A stretch of 42,632 nt of DNA, taken from the NCBI GenBank assembly GCA_007122335.1, contig SKTZ01000036.1, forward strand, positions 1 through 42,632. Direction: 5' to 3'. The notes under the pieces were generated by a model that ran no database searches, was not told the DNA's origin, and was given only the letters and a program-made list of their open reading frames with translations. The stretch is from Bacillota bacterium. Lineage in GTDB: Bacteria; Bacillota; Halanaerobiia; B1SED10-174. Numbering within the stretch: the first letter of the stretch is position 1; the number at the start of each line of letters is the position of its first letter. This document shows, piece by piece, positions 5,136 through 28,320 of this stretch. Position numbers and translations under genes: made by a program.

Positions 5136-6722
5136 TTATTCCCTAAATATGCCCAGACCATTGGGTGAAAGGTTGAGCTGTTTTTTTTGCCTTTCGATAC
5201 CAGCTTTTTTCTCGGGAAAAACCAGTTTTAACCCTGATAATTCAGAGGGGAGGACCGCAGTTTGTTTTCTGGAGGAAAAGTTGAGAATAATTAGGAGTTT
5301 TTCTAACTCATACTGGCGCCTAAAAGCCAATACCTGGGGATTATTTATATCCAGGAACTGAATTTCCCCTTTTTGCAGAGCCATGGAATTATTGCGAAAA
5401 GTAATTAAAGTGCGATAAAAATGGAAAAGAGAATTAGGATCCTTTTTTTGAGCTGCAAGATTAACCTCTTTATAGTTCTGGTTAACGGGGAGCCAGGGGT
5501 TAGCAGAACTGAAACCCGAGTTCCGGTAACCATTCCACTGCATTGGAGTTCGGCAACCATCTCGCCCGTGATGAAAAGGCCAGTACCTCTTGCCAACGGG
5601 ATCGAGAATCCTGAAGCGGGGGATTTTCCCCTGAGACATTCCAATTTCCTCCCCGTAGTAGAGGAAAGGGGTGCCTCGCAGGGTTAAAAGCAAAGTAGCT
5701 GCAACTCTCGCTCGTGCTTCGCAATTTCCGAAACGGGTGAAATGCCGGGGGACGTCGTGATTGGAAAGGGTGTAAACGGGCCAGTTTTCAGGGCCGAGGA
5801 GTCCTTCCCATTCTTCGATAGCTTTTTTGAAGGCTGCTGCTTTCCAGGGTTGTTCCAGGAAATTGAAATTAAAATTTATATGAAGTCCATCATTTTCAGG
5901 CCCATAATAAGAAGCTGCAATCTTCGCATTCCTCTCAGCAACCTCTCCCAGGGCAATTTTTTCCGGATAATCCTCTAAAAGGTTGCGGATCTCTTTCATT
6001 ATTTCAATATTTTCGGGACGGTTTTTATCAAAAATGTGTTTTTGCATTTCATATGGGCGGCGGCCGGGGCAATAGGGATTTGACCTTAACTTTTCATCTT
6101 TAAGATAAAAATCAACCACGTCCAATCTAAAGCCATCCACGCCTTTTTCCAGCCAGGAACGGAGGATTTTAAAAATCTGCTTTTTTACTTCCGGATTACG
6201 CCAGTTTAAATCGGGCTGTTCAGGAAGGAAGGAGTGGAGGTAAAATTGTTTTCTTTGCTCTGACCAGCTCCAGGCCGGACCACCAAAAACAGATTTCCAG
6301 TTATTGGGTCGTCTTTTCAGGAGCCGTGGTTCTGCCCATATGTACCAGTCTGCTTTGGGGTTGTCCCGGGAAGAAGATGATTCAATAAACCAGGGGTGGA
6401 GGTGGGAGGAATGATTTAAAGCAAGGTCAAGGAGAATGCGGATTTTTTTCTCGCGGGCTTTTAAAAGCAACTCGTCGAAGACCTCCATGGAGCCAAAAAG
6501 AGGTTCAATATTATAATAATCGGAAGTATCATAGCCAAAATCGTACATGGGGGAAGGAAAGATGGGGCAGAGCCATATCCCTGCTACTCCCAATTCTTTT
6601 AGGTAATCCATTTTTTTAATAATTCCTTTCAGGTCACCAACGCCATTGTGCGTGGTGTCGAGAAAAGAACGGGGATAAATCTGATAGATAACTCCTTTTT
6701 GCCACCAGGGTTGATGTTCCAT
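5136..6722 (-). CDS. GH13 alpha-glucosidase (oligo-1,6-glucosidase type)
   Basis: A 528-residue cytoplasmic alpha-glucosidase of glycoside hydrolase family 13, the group that releases glucose from short malto- or isomalto-oligosaccharides or sucrose/trehalose-type substrates. The four family regions are present: LDLALNHSS (about 98-106), GFRLDVVDF (nucleophile Asp201), IALGEVAE (acid/base Glu260) and LSNHDVPR (Asp323). GRDGCRTPMQW is the usual alpha-glucosidase motif before the C-terminal beta domain. The ATG at 6722 has GGAGG eight bases upstream. The frame extends 37 codons further, but that part is unrelated hydrophobic sequence and nearly reaches the divergent gene. No sugar transporter or regulator is adjacent. 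Confidence 0.9.
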   Translation of the reverse strand: MEHQPWWQKGVIYQIYPRSFLDTTHNGVGDLKGIIKKMDYLKELGVAGIWLCPIFPSPMYDFGYDTSDYYNIEPLFGSMEVFDELLLKAREKKIRILLDLALNHSSHLHPWFIESSSSRDNPKADWYIWAEPRLLKRRPNNWKSVFGGPAWSWSEQRKQFYLHSFLPEQPDLNWRNPEVKKQIFKILRSWLEKGVDGFRLDVVDFYLKDEKLRSNPYCPGRRPYEMQKHIFDKNRPENIEIMKEIRNLLEDYPEKIALGEVAERNAKIAASYYGPENDGLHINFNFNFLEQPWKAAAFKKAIEEWEGLLGPENWPVYTLSNHDVPRHFTRFGNCEARARVAATLLLTLRGTPFLYYGEEIGMSQGKIPRFRILDPVGKRYWPFHHGRDGCRTPMQWNGYRNSGFSSANPWLPVNQNYKEVNLAAQKKDPNSLFHFYRTLITFRNNSMALQKGEIQFLDINNPQVLAFRRQYELEKLLIILNFSSRKQTAVLPSELSGLKLVFPEKKAGIERQKKQLNLSPNGLGIFRE

Positions 6723-6836
6723 TTGCTGGCCTCCGTTTGCCAAAGAAGTAAATATGCAGGGTAAAAGAATCCAACCCCGAATATAGTAAAAAAGCCCTAC
6801 GGAAAAATAAAAGAGATAAGAAAGGATGAGCAAACA

Positions 6837-7733
6837 ATGGTGGAAATTAAAGCAAACACTTCGATTTATTCATTTTCTCCGGATAATAAACCTGCGGCAA
6901 CTGTGCAACCGGGTTCAGTTGCAGTTTTTGAGACCCGGGATTGTTTTAGCAACCAGATTGAAACCGAAGATCAGCTATTTGAAAGTGCTGACTGGTCTAC
7001 AATAAACCCTGCGACCGGCCCTCTGGCAGTTGAAGGGGCGGAAAAAGGTGATGTTCTGGTAGTGGATATTTTGGATATTGAAACTGCTGAATTTGGGGTA
7101 ATGACCGCAGTTGCTGATATGGGCGCTATCCCCCACCTTCTCGATGGCTCCGAAACCAGGATTATCCCTATAAAAGACGGCTGGGCTGAATTCAACAATG
7201 AATTAAAATTCCCGATCAAGCCGATGGTAGGAGTGATTGGAGTCGCCCCGGCTGAGGAAACAATACCCTGTGGAACTCCTGGAATTCACGGCGGGAACAT
7301 GGACACCAAAGAGATCAGAAAAGGGACAAGGCTTTACCTTCCGGTCTGGCAGGAAGGAGGGCTTCTTTCCATGGGAGATTTACATGCCCTGCAGGCAGAT
7401 GGGGAGGTGCTTTTCTGTGGGATTGAAGTAGCGGGAAGAGTTACAGTCAAGGTAGACGTTGTAAAGGGGAAAGAATTGGCCACTCCCATTCTGGAAACAG
7501 AAAGCCATTTTTACGTTATTGGGTCTGCAGAAAATCTGGAGGAAGCGGCAAAAGTTACCATGGACTGGACCCATTCCTTCCTTAAAGAAAGAACAAATCT
7601 GACCAACAATGAGGTGGGAATGTTAATGAGCCTGCTTTGTGACCTGCAGATTAGCCAGATTGTGGATCCTCTTATTACCTGCCGCATGGCCATTCCTAAA
7701 GCCTCTTTTTCTGCTTATAAAATTTCTTTTTAA
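6837..7733 (+). CDS. Acetamidase/formamidase family protein
   Basis: A 298-residue member of the FmdA/AmdA family, which hydrolyses formamide, acetamide or related small amides to ammonia and the acid. Family landmarks are the N-terminal VQPGSVAVFETRD, the NPATGPLAVEGAEKGDVLVV block (about 59-78), GIHGGNMDTKEI with its metal-ligand region (about 149-160) and SMGDLHALQADGEVLFCGIEV (about 178-198). The length fits the short form of the family. The ATG follows an AAAGGA site about 10 bases upstream. It is divergent from the alpha-glucosidase, and its last 38 bases overlap the convergent HPP gene. The true substrate is unknown. Confidence 0.87.
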   Translation: MVEIKANTSIYSFSPDNKPAATVQPGSVAVFETRDCFSNQIETEDQLFESADWSTINPATGPLAVEGAEKGDVLVVDILDIETAEFGVMTAVADMGAIPHLLDGSETRIIPIKDGWAEFNNELKFPIKPMVGVIGVAPAEETIPCGTPGIHGGNMDTKEIRKGTRLYLPVWQEGGLLSMGDLHALQADGEVLFCGIEVAGRVTVKVDVVKGKELATPILETESHFYVIGSAENLEEAAKVTMDWTHSFLKERTNLTNNEVGMLMSLLCDLQISQIVDPLITCRMAIPKASFSAYKISF

Positions 7734-24503: not shown

Positions 24504-24513
24504 CCTTGAAGAT

Positions 24514-24540
24514 AGAAAAGGTCCGGAATGGACCTTTTCT
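24514..24540 (+). terminator. Terminator after cysS
   Basis: AGAAAAGGTCC and GGACCTTTTCT form a perfect 11-bp stem with a 5-base loop, 10 bases after the stop. The T run is inside the 3' arm and ACTTTAAAG follows. Confidence 0.65.
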
Positions 24541-24607
24541 ACTTTAAAGTAAAAGGAAAAAAAGAAATAAAATAGAAATTAATGGGCAGAAGAAGGGAGG
24601 GGAATAA

Positions 24608-26518
24608 ATGGGAGAGGAAAAAATTTTGACCAGGGCCCCCCAGGAAAATTTAGGGGCAGAGGTCCTGGTTACCGGAAATGAGTTTTTGGCGCTTCCCGCC
24701 CTTTTTCAGCAGGGCCTTGTAGAAAGCGTGAACCTTTTGAGCGAGAAGGCCCGAGGGCTTTTGGAATTTAGGCCCGAGGCCGGGAAATATTTCCTTGTCC
24801 CCTTTTGCCGCCAGCAGGATCGAGTTTTACAGCCAAAAAAATGGAACTGGAAACAACTGGATCACTGGATCCCAGTAGTTGAAATTTCCTGCCCGGGAGG
24901 GAAAATGGAAATAACCTACGTCTTTCCCCCTGAAGAAAGGGGAGGGGTGTTAATTTTTAGTTATAAAAATGAAGGTCTTTTTGACCAGGAAATTTCCCTT
25001 GGGTTTAAAGGGAACTGGGTGGGCTGTAACCAGACTATCTACAGGTCACGCCGTATATCTGGAGAGAAACGGATTGTCCAGGATAACTGGACTCAAACGC
25101 TGAACCTGGAATTTTCCAGCGGCTTATCACTTGGTGCTATAGCAATTAAAGGTGGAGAAGGAGGGGACAGGATTCAGGTCGGGGGAGGAGAAAAAACGAG
25201 GTTGCTGCAGGAAGGGGAGGGTATTTCGACAGGGAGAGAAAAAATTGAGTTTGTCCTGGAGCAGGATTTTTCAGTTAAACCCGGGGAAAAAGTAACCTGG
25301 CCCCTTTACTTTGCGGTTGGTGCTGATCCCGACGCCGCAGCAACGACCTGTATTCACCTGCAGCGGCAGGGCTGGAAGGAATTGCTTTCAATAAGCAGGG
25401 ACTGGCTTCAGGAAAGAAAAGTTGTGGCCCGCCCCCCTGCTCTGGAAAGAAAATTAAATTACAATCTTTTTTTCAACTATTTTTACGCTCAGGGCCGTTC
25501 CATTGAAAAAGGAGAGCTCTACCTCCTTACTTCCCGGAGTCCACGCTACTATGTAAGTGGGGCATACTGGCCCCGAGATTCTCTGCTCTGGAGTTTACCG
25601 GGAATTATGGAAATAGACCGGGACAGGGGAAAACAATTATTTAAGCTCGCTGTTAACAGACACTGGAATGAGGGAGGGACCCACAGCCAGTACATTACCG
25701 GGGGAGAACTTTATCCCGGTTTTGAGGTTGACCAGCTATGTGCATATTTTATTGCCATGGAAAGATTCTGGAATCTCCCCGGAGGCAAATTGCTTGTTGA
25801 GGGAATGCCGATTAATCGTATGGCAAAGGATTTTTTCCGCTGGCTGTATGCCTGGAAACACGAAGAGGAATTCCTTTTTGCTACATTCCTAGACCCAGCA
25901 GATGATCCTCCTACCTATCCCTTTGTTACTTACAATCAAGTTTTAATCTGGCGGGTTTTAGGTTTCTTCAGGGAACTGGCCAGGGCCAATTTACTGGGGC
26001 TTCCCGTATCCTGGTTAAAAAGGCTGCGGGAAGGAATAGAAAAATCCATTTACGAACATGCAGTTGTAAAAACGGATGACGGCAGAGAAATCCTGGCCGG
26101 AACTTTTGATGCCCGGGGCAACCATGAACTTTATGAAAATCCACCCGGTGCTCTTTCGCTTTTACCTTACTGGGGTTTTCTTGACCTGGAAGATCCTCTT
26201 TATCAGGATACCTTGGAATGGATCAACTCCACCCAGAATCAATATTACCTGGAAGAAGGAAAGTTTTGTGGCATTTCTTCTGCTCATGCTGACGGCGCCT
26301 GGGTTTTAGCAGTAGTAAGTGAACTTCTCTCGGGTTATCGGGCAGAAGAGAACAGGGAATGGTTAAAGAAAGCACCTCTTGATGGAGAACTTGCCTGTGA
26401 AACTGTAGATCCCCAGACAGGAAAAGCAAAGACTGGCCTGGCGTTTGCTACCTGTGCTGGTTTTCTGGGATATGCTCTGGCAACTGACTGGAGGAGGCAG
26501 GCTAATGAACCCAACTGA
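24608..26518 (+). CDS. GH125-like glycosidase with (alpha/alpha)6 barrel
   Basis: A 636-residue cytoplasmic protein. The N-terminal 250 residues are beta-rich (beta-sandwich like). The rest looks like a six-hairpin (alpha/alpha)6 barrel. Blocks similar to GH125 exo-alpha-mannosidases are GAYWPRDSLLWSLPGI (about 317-332, with the Arg-Asp pair), GISSAHADGAWVLAV near 555 and ETVDPQTGKAKTGLAFATCAGF near the C-terminus. The protein is longer than GH125 enzymes (about 430 residues); GH63 or debranching-type families are alternatives. AGGGAGGGG precedes the ATG. Its last 14 bases overlap the next gene, heading a three-gene operon with two nitrilase-fold proteins. Confidence 0.65.
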   Translation: MGEEKILTRAPQENLGAEVLVTGNEFLALPALFQQGLVESVNLLSEKARGLLEFRPEAGKYFLVPFCRQQDRVLQPKKWNWKQLDHWIPVVEISCPGGKMEITYVFPPEERGGVLIFSYKNEGLFDQEISLGFKGNWVGCNQTIYRSRRISGEKRIVQDNWTQTLNLEFSSGLSLGAIAIKGGEGGDRIQVGGGEKTRLLQEGEGISTGREKIEFVLEQDFSVKPGEKVTWPLYFAVGADPDAAATTCIHLQRQGWKELLSISRDWLQERKVVARPPALERKLNYNLFFNYFYAQGRSIEKGELYLLTSRSPRYYVSGAYWPRDSLLWSLPGIMEIDRDRGKQLFKLAVNRHWNEGGTHSQYITGGELYPGFEVDQLCAYFIAMERFWNLPGGKLLVEGMPINRMAKDFFRWLYAWKHEEEFLFATFLDPADDPPTYPFVTYNQVLIWRVLGFFRELARANLLGLPVSWLKRLREGIEKSIYEHAVVKTDDGREILAGTFDARGNHELYENPPGALSLLPYWGFLDLEDPLYQDTLEWINSTQNQYYLEEGKFCGISSAHADGAWVLAVVSELLSGYRAEENREWLKKAPLDGELACETVDPQTGKAKTGLAFATCAGFLGYALATDWRRQANEPN

Positions 26519-27251
26519 GATTGGAGTAATTTCCTGGGAGCAACAGCCCCCCGGTTTTGAGAGCTATCTGCAGAGGGCAAAAAAAGAAGTGGAGAAATTA
26601 AAAGAACAGGGGGTTGATCTGATTCTCCTGCCGGGAAATACAGGGGGAGAAAAAAACTTACCTCCAGAAGACTGGTTTTCTGCCCACGGGGAGCTGGCTA
26701 GGAATTTTAATGTTTTTCTTGTTCCCGGCCCGGTAAAAAACCCTTCAGGGAAAAGTATCAGTGTGATTTATGATAATTCGGGAAAAGAAATCGGGAAGCA
26801 GGTCGAAGTCGGGAGTAAAAACGGGGGGGATATTAATATTTTTCCCACTGAATTGGGCAACCTGGCCCTATCCCTGGGTAAGGATGTTTATACTCCCGAA
26901 TACGGTAGGGTTCTTGCCGGGATGGGTGCGGATATCCTTTTAGCCCCATTAACTGATCGGAAAAAACTGGGTGGGTGGCGTTGGGAATTGTCTGGTTTGT
27001 GGAGAGAAGTCCAGCAAAACCAGTTCTGGGGAGTTGAGGCGGGATGTGAAGCCCGTCCCGGAGCAGTTTTTGCCCCCTGTGAAGCCACAAAAGATAGGAC
27101 TGGCATACTTAAAAAAGGATGGGGTTCTATAAGGGCTTCTCTAGAAGAGAGAAAAAGGGAAGAAGCCCGGGAAATTTTTCCTGTTGGTTCCCAGCTAAGC
27201 CACCCCACGATAGAGAATTTCTTAGAAAAGTTATCCGGAGGTGGTCAATGA
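26505..27251 (+). CDS. Carbon-nitrogen hydrolase-fold protein lacking catalytic Glu and Cys
   Basis: A 248-residue nitrilase-superfamily fold, seen from GVDLILLPGN (about 36-45), KSISVIYDNSGKEIGKQ (83-99) and LALSLGKDVYTPEYGRVLAGMG (120-141), then ADILLAPLT. Aligned with its neighbour, the catalytic Glu is Gly44 and the nucleophile Cys is Gly125 (LGKD instead of VCMD); a Lys near 98 may remain. It should be inactive as a nitrilase and may act as a structural or regulatory partner of the active paralogue. GGAGGAGG precedes the ATG. It overlaps the glycosidase gene by 14 bases and the next gene by 4. Confidence 0.7.
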   Translation: MNPTEIGVISWEQQPPGFESYLQRAKKEVEKLKEQGVDLILLPGNTGGEKNLPPEDWFSAHGELARNFNVFLVPGPVKNPSGKSISVIYDNSGKEIGKQVEVGSKNGGDINIFPTELGNLALSLGKDVYTPEYGRVLAGMGADILLAPLTDRKKLGGWRWELSGLWREVQQNQFWGVEAGCEARPGAVFAPCEATKDRTGILKKGWGSIRASLEERKREEAREIFPVGSQLSHPTIENFLEKLSGGGQ

Positions 27252-28258
27252 TGTTGCCTCTGGTTAAAGCCCTTATGCAGTGGAAAACCAGGCCAGGTGT
27301 AATTAAAAAAGCTCTTGCAGACAAGAAATTTCCTGTCTGTCCTCCTCCCCCTGGTTCAGAGGGATTGAGAGTTGCCTGCGCTCAAATGGAATTAATATCT
27401 GCTCGAAATATCAGCGAGTATGTTGACTGGCTCTATCAACCCCTTCTGGAAGCAGTGAAAAGGGGAAATCAGCTTTTTCTTTATCCAGAATATGTAACGC
27501 TGCCTCTTTTAGGGTTGCTTCCGGTAGTTGATGAAGAAGATGGAAAGAAAATTGATCCAGGGGAAGTTTTTCGATTTGTGGCCCCCTTTTTAAGCCAGGT
27601 CTACCACAAAGTTTTTAGCGGACTTGCCCGGGAAGCCGGGATATATATAGCTGCGGGAAGCATGTTTGCTGTCCAAAAAGAAAAATTGTATAATACAGCT
27701 CACCTGTTTGACCCGGAAGGGAATTTGATTCTGACCCAAAGGAAAATGAACCTGGTTCCACTGGAGAGCCAATGGGGGGTTGAAACCGGTTCGGAGCTGG
27801 AGGTAGTTGAAATTGATGGCGGGTGGCGACTGGCAATGCCGGTTTGTATGGATGCAACTTACTTTGAAATTTTTCGGCTGGCGGGAGCCCGGGGAGCCCA
27901 TCTGGTCCTGGTCCCAATTGCCGATATTAATCCCGATTACAGTGAGCACATGGCTTTACGGGGTGTCTGGGCCCGGGTCCAGGAGGAACCGGTTTTTGGA
28001 ATTAAAAGTGCTCTTGTTGGAAATTTTTTCGGTTTTAAGTTTACCGGGAAAGCAGGGATTTATGCTCCCGGAGAGATTACTTCTGATGGGGAGGGAGTAA
28101 TTGCCGAATCCCAAAACCCAGAACAGGGAAATCTGGTGCAGGCCAAACTTTGCCGGTCTTTACTGGAAAAAGCTCGGGCCAAAAAGCTCTCTCCTCCCGG
28201 AGAACTATACCGGGACTACCTGGCAGAAAGTTATGAAAACCTTCTTAAAAGGAAATAA
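27248..28258 (+). CDS. Carbon-nitrogen hydrolase (nitrilase superfamily), intact triad
   Basis: A 336-residue nitrilase-superfamily enzyme expected to split an amide, carbamoyl or nitrile bond. The triad is intact: Glu81 in FLYPEY, Lys166 in ILTQRKMNLVPLE, and Cys200 in MPVCMDATYFEIFR. ARGAHLVLVPIADINPDY follows the nucleophile as usual. The N-terminal 40 residues are an extension beyond the core. ATG 27248 overlaps the upstream stop (ATGA) with GGAGG just before it; the open frame further upstream lies inside the preceding gene. It ends the operon before a terminator. The substrate is unknown and may be linked to the glycosidase. Confidence 0.82.
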   Translation: MMLPLVKALMQWKTRPGVIKKALADKKFPVCPPPPGSEGLRVACAQMELISARNISEYVDWLYQPLLEAVKRGNQLFLYPEYVTLPLLGLLPVVDEEDGKKIDPGEVFRFVAPFLSQVYHKVFSGLAREAGIYIAAGSMFAVQKEKLYNTAHLFDPEGNLILTQRKMNLVPLESQWGVETGSELEVVEIDGGWRLAMPVCMDATYFEIFRLAGARGAHLVLVPIADINPDYSEHMALRGVWARVQEEPVFGIKSALVGNFFGFKFTGKAGIYAPGEITSDGEGVIAESQNPEQGNLVQAKLCRSLLEKARAKKLSPPGELYRDYLAESYENLLKRK

Positions 28259-28289
28259 AGTGAAGTGAAAACTGCATAATACCAAAAAG

Positions 28290-28320
28290 AGCCCGCTAAT
28301 TTTAATAAACGGGCTTTTTT
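28290..28320 (+). terminator. Terminator after the glycosidase-nitrilase operon
   Basis: AGCCCG and CGGGCT form a 6-bp stem with a 14-base A/T loop, followed by a T run, about 30 bases after the stop. Confidence 0.75.

Follow-up and report, generated by a model that had tools for sequence, protein, structure and literature searches.

Among the glycosidases, family GH125 is represented by exo-alpha-1,6-mannosidases such as SP_2144, CPE0426, and BT3781, and GH125 genes are often paired with GH38 genes in N-glycan loci (PMC5215778). Known amidases of the nitrilase superfamily, including the P. horikoshii amidase (1j31/6ypa), Nit2, and the formamidases, share a Glu-Lys-Cys triad, a second Glu, and a common fold. 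Here, we describe a cluster of three genes that brings relatives of these two groups together. The cluster lies at positions 24608-28258 on the forward strand of contig SKTZ01000036.1 (assembly GCA_007122335.1), from a Bacillota bacterium of the class Halanaerobiia; the whole stretch of 42,632 nucleotides that was analyzed is called the window. The three open reading frames (ORFs) stand where the initial annotation had placed them, and encode a glycosidase related to family GH125 (GH), a pseudoenzyme of the nitrilase fold (N2), and a predicted nitrilase-superfamily amidase (N3). The trio is a real and conserved module that is apparently undescribed, and we consider it probable that it forms the core of a widespread intracellular system of the Bacillota, which dismantles an amide-bearing or N-acylated glycoside.

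The first line of evidence is the distribution of the genes in 399 genomes sampled across the phylum, in which N3 orthologues were defined by scores above 180 bits. GH matches were found in 71 genomes, and 60 of them were judged on reading to be true family members. GH and N3 occur together in 51 genomes, GH alone in nine, N3 alone in 19, and neither in 320, which gives an odds ratio of 95 and a Fisher P of 6e-39, a value that ignores the relatedness of the genomes. The initial annotation had set the absence of this triplet from other genomes as a refuting outcome; instead, N3 (with N2) is present in about 18% of the sample (70 genomes) and GH in about 15% (60 genomes). In the family of the host, the trio is present in all five adequately assembled genomes (the host, three members of its genus, and one of its family), and another genome, of 57% completeness, gave no match. 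Profiles of GH and N3 found no relatives in the viral contigs searched.

The genes are also physically linked. N2 adjoins N3 at 67 of the 68 mapped N3 loci, and at the 68th (L105) an overlapping N2 frame was lost in ORF picking. GH lies no more than 6 kb from N3 at 45 of these 68 loci, which were partly picked for the presence or absence of GH. Gene order and orientation change between lineages and the linkage stays; in a genome labelled Thermaerobacter, for example, the order is N2-N3-GH followed by a 2-hydroxyacid dehydrogenase gene, and all of these genes overlap. N2 and N3 even share a single open frame at five loci (L094, L095, L104, L110, and L111), as do N3 and GH at one (L046). The proposal that the trio is one functional unit is supported by a linkage that is kept through rearranged orders, by overlaps, and by joined frames. 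If GH and the N2-N3 pair had two independent functions that merely happen to cluster, genomes with only one partner would be expected, and there are 19 with N3 and without GH and nine with GH and without N3. This explanation seems quite unlikely in view of the strength of the co-occurrence, the survival of the linkage through changes of order, the translational overlaps, and the N3-GH open frame. Because 19 of the 70 N3 genomes have no detectable GH, the N2-N3 pair may nevertheless have a role that is independent of GH.

The GH protein (24608-26518, 636 residues) was originally described as GH125-like, and its relationship to this family is supported. It matches PF06824 with E 5e-17 and 62 bits (gathering score, 23.4), over residues 424-587 only; this alignment spans profile positions 208-373 of 414, not the whole catalytic domain. 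A profile built from 28 homologues gave significant matches to GH125 structures only (best, 2nvp, E 1e-23), and it aligns mainly over the C-terminal part of these structures. In GH125, the PSDD motif holds the catalytic acid and the Glu of the HE(G/S)F motif is the catalytic base. When GH is aligned with 2nvp and 3p2c, Asp432-Asp433 of its PxDDP motif (25901-25906) falls at the position of the acid and Glu598 (26399-26401) at that of the base, and both sites are invariant in 41 of 41 homologues. Membership of a known debranching family or of GH63 had been named in advance as an outcome that would speak against the proposal. All 28 homologues matched GH125, none matched GH63 in the family profile search, and one matched GDE_C weakly (E 0.0026); assignment of GH to GH63 or to the amylo-alpha-1,6-glucosidase debranching enzymes is therefore disfavored.

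GH differs from the described GH125 mannosidases in several respects: (i) it carries about 270 additional N-terminal residues, and most members of its family are 600-670 residues long, as compared with about 430; (ii) its Pfam match is partial; and (iii) its neighbors are amidases and a GPH symporter. Because its domain match is partial and its size exceeds that of a single-domain member, we file GH as a GH125-related protein rather than as a plain member of GH125. The N-terminal region of about 270 residues had no significant match in Pfam or among PDB sequences. A low-confidence AlphaFold2 model built from four sequences (predicted local distance difference test, pLDDT, 42), which was kept out of fold searches, places mostly strands in the N-terminal region, followed by helices. 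An N-terminal sandwich joined to a helical barrel is an architecture found in related glycosidases, and this arrangement would fit it. As to GH remnants, one genome (G446) carries such a remnant beside N2-N3 (L106, 9752-10147) and an intact GH gene by a glycerate kinase gene on another contig (L071, 8862-10652), and at locus L107 GH is present as a remnant only.

The last gene of the trio, N3 (27248-28258, 335-336 residues), had been read as an intact nitrilase-fold protein, and this reading holds. It matches CN_hydrolase (PF00795, E 3e-14), and its predicted catalytic residues are Glu81 (27488-27490) and Lys166 (27743-27745), both kept in 59 of 59 aligned homologues, and the nucleophile Cys200 (27845-27847), kept in 58. 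The full triad is therefore present in 58 of the 59 sequences, and a second Glu, E173, is invariant. In its triad, second Glu, and fold, N3 resembles the known nitrilase-superfamily amidases; unlike them, it has its own motifs, PVCMDATYFETF and RGIWPRVQE, and is paired with a paralogue that lacks the triad. N3 scores below every NCBIfam equivalog cut-off, and we classify it as a predicted nitrilase-superfamily amidase without assigning it to a branch. Two N3 genes stand apart. In genome G190 (L101, 6483-7658), Gly replaces the catalytic Cys, so that both nitrilase-fold proteins of this genome appear to be catalytically dead, and at L117 (4342-5576) N3 is broken into two ORFs, through either a sequencing error or genuine breakage.

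The middle gene, N2 (26505-27251, 248 residues), keeps the fold and has lost the active site, as the initial annotation had proposed in calling it degenerate. Its match to PF00795 lies exactly at the cut-off (E 5e-5), its profile matches nitrilases with E 4e-26, and a partial AlphaFold2 model matches nitrilase-2 with E 4e-9. In the alignment, Gly44 (26634-26636) occupies the position of the catalytic Glu, Glu101 (26805-26807) that of the Lys, where most homologues have Gln, and Gly125 (26877-26879) that of the Cys. None of the 57 N2 homologues, counted after removal of one mis-assigned row (L112), has a complete triad: the Lys is replaced in all 57, mostly by Gln, and the Glu or the Cys is left in some only. 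The loss of the triad could mean that N2 is a functionless duplicate in the course of decay, and it does evolve faster than its partners; the ratio of nonsynonymous to synonymous substitution rates (dN/dS, omega) is 0.16-0.22 for N2, 0.08-0.15 for N3, and 0.04-0.07 for GH. We regard decay as highly improbable. An omega in this range, the invariant residues of its own that N2 carries, its place next to N3 at 67-68 of the 68 loci, and the open frame shared with N3 in five genomes all characterize N2 as a conserved pseudoenzyme under purifying selection. The N2/N3 tree, with two outgroups only, is poorly rooted.

The genes that surround the trio in other genomes bear on its substrate. The commonest companion is a GPH-type symporter (PF13347, TIGR00792), found at 19 of the 68 loci; it matches this family of sugar:cation symporters, with a score under the curated cut-off of TIGR00792. 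A PIG-L N-deacetylase gene is present at about seven or eight loci, and in one clade it sits between N3 and GH. Some GH loci also include ATP-binding cassette (ABC) sugar transporters, an Amidohydro_2 protein, or a ROK kinase. These neighbors point to the uptake and breakdown of a carbohydrate that bears an amide or N-acyl group, and the glycoside bearing an amide that was first suggested as the class of substrate fits them. Spo0A, found in 345 of the 399 genomes (86%), is too common to discriminate a link to sporulation.

One compound considered was bacillithiol (Cys-GlcN-malate), whose pathway comprises BshA/B/C and BshB-like deacetylases and amidases. The module could degrade bacillithiol, a related aminosugar thiol, or their conjugates, in which case N3 would act on the amide, GH on the alpha-glucosaminyl-malate bond, and the GPH protein in transport of the conjugate. 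A BshB-like PIG-L gene is indeed inside the operon in about seven or eight genomes; a GPH orthologue of the host, 51% identical to the trio-linked GPH protein, has bshC, bshB1, bshA, and a MATE-type exporter gene upstream of it (L121, 6579-12798, contig C116); bshC and GPH are comparably close in two further genomes (G002 and G004); and at L048 the order GPH, N3, N2, GH is followed by a true BshB1 gene. However, BshC is weakly tied to N3 across the phylum (21 of 70 N3 genomes versus 56 of 329 others; odds ratio 2.1, P 0.019), the clade with PIG-L in the operon is without BshC, bshC and the trio are far apart in the remaining genomes compared, and the GPH orthologue of G005 is not adjacent to bsh genes. 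We consider this reading unlikely.

A glycosylglycerate or glycosylglyceramide compatible solute has been considered as well: N3 would cut the amide and GH would free the sugar and glycerate. In favor of this substrate, a glycerate kinase gene is immediately upstream of GH at L071, and a 2-hydroxyacid dehydrogenase gene, akin to those of hydroxypyruvate reductases, overlaps GH at L010. Each of these hints comes from one locus, however, and the L071 genome keeps N2-N3 on a separate contig; this substrate is improbable. The mannosyl-amide solute named in the initial annotation is not supported either, with indirect glycerate hints at these two loci only. Mannosyl-3-phosphoglycerate synthase (PF09488), whose absence weighs against both proposals, is missing in nine carriers, including the host, although a solute might be taken up from outside.

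To return to an amide-bearing or N-acylated glycoside in general, the following mechanism is moderately supported. GH would be an inverting exo-glycosidase of the GH125 type whose probable target is an alpha-linkage; N3 would be a cysteine amidase that cuts the amide of the substrate; and N2 would be a non-catalytic partner subunit that shapes the active site, the specificity, or the assembly of N3. The GPH symporter would bring in the substrate in many carriers, and in one clade the PIG-L deacetylase would strip an N-acetyl group. The sequences directly show that the genes are linked, which active sites are intact and which are lost, which frames are joined, and what genes lie nearby; from these we infer cytoplasmic catabolism or salvage, an N2-N3 complex, the alpha-stereochemistry, and the order of the steps. 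The reactions are placed in the cytoplasm because no obvious signal peptide was seen by eye in GH, N2, or N3. Several points weigh against this mechanism: kinship among the genomes means that the P value for co-occurrence overstates their independence, and the mapped loci were in part selected; the genomes that carry only N3, some of them fragmented assemblies, or only GH have to be accommodated; some of the joined frames come from high-GC (guanine plus cytosine) draft genomes; the GH model is poor and says little about the N-terminal region; and the trio of the host has no adjacent transporter gene, its GPH orthologue being elsewhere in the genome. A more far-reaching version is put forward only tentatively. 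In it, the N3 enzyme and the N2 pseudoenzyme form an obligate heteromer, an architecture that would be new to the nitrilase superfamily, and join a new GH125-related glycosidase family in a channelling complex, which acts on a novel amide-bearing glycoside that is common among the Bacillota.

In the open literature, we found no description of a GH125 and nitrilase combination or of a nitrilase-superfamily pseudoenzyme, most subscription papers being outside the search; searches for a pseudoenzyme with nitrilase and for bacillithiol with nitrilase returned incidental matches only. The earlier remark that no described pathway has this combination stands within that scope. Given the frequencies of N3 and GH in the phylum sample, current knowledge appears to lack a common metabolite together with the pathway that handles it. 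GH looks like a separate family beside GH125, and N2, as a conserved dead paralogue, would be a clean case for the control of a nitrilase-superfamily amidase by a pseudoenzyme. The naturally joined versions of N2-N3 and N3-GH should ease the expression and testing of the complex.

The arrangement of the trio in the window is compact. Of the two overlaps reported initially, that of 14 bases between the GH and N2 frames is correct. The other, of 4 bases between N2 and N3, holds only if N3 starts at the ATG at 27248, and shrinks to 1 base with the ATG at 27251. The latter is more likely to be the conserved start, because the codon that matches the ATG at 27248 encodes Ile in one relative (L008) and Val in another (L009), and Met comes next in both. 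Two hairpins on the forward strand probably bound the trio: one between cysS and GH (24508-24545, -20.5 kcal/mol, z -5.5), a probable cysS terminator that sets this gene off, and one with a U-run just past N3 (28285-28320, -13.9 kcal/mol, z -3.3), a probable operon terminator that agrees with the single terminator placed after the trio initially. Neither hairpin was listed by a consensus terminator scanner; the loop of the downstream one, 14 nucleotides, is above the loop limit of the scanner.

Other pairings of carbohydrate and amide genes were also seen. At L055 (9905-11014), GH and an ABC sugar transporter gene are followed by the gene of a CN-hydrolase that appears to carry a signal peptide; this pairing is distinct from N2-N3. 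At L093, where the neighbors were identified by eye, and at L109, N2-N3 occurs without GH and adjoins genes for an SGNH-type esterase, LacI-type regulators, and an ABC sugar transporter. In the window itself, a GH13-like alpha-glucosidase gene (5136-6833, reverse strand) stands, as judged by eye, head to head with an acetamidase/formamidase-like gene (6837-7733, forward strand), 3 bases apart.

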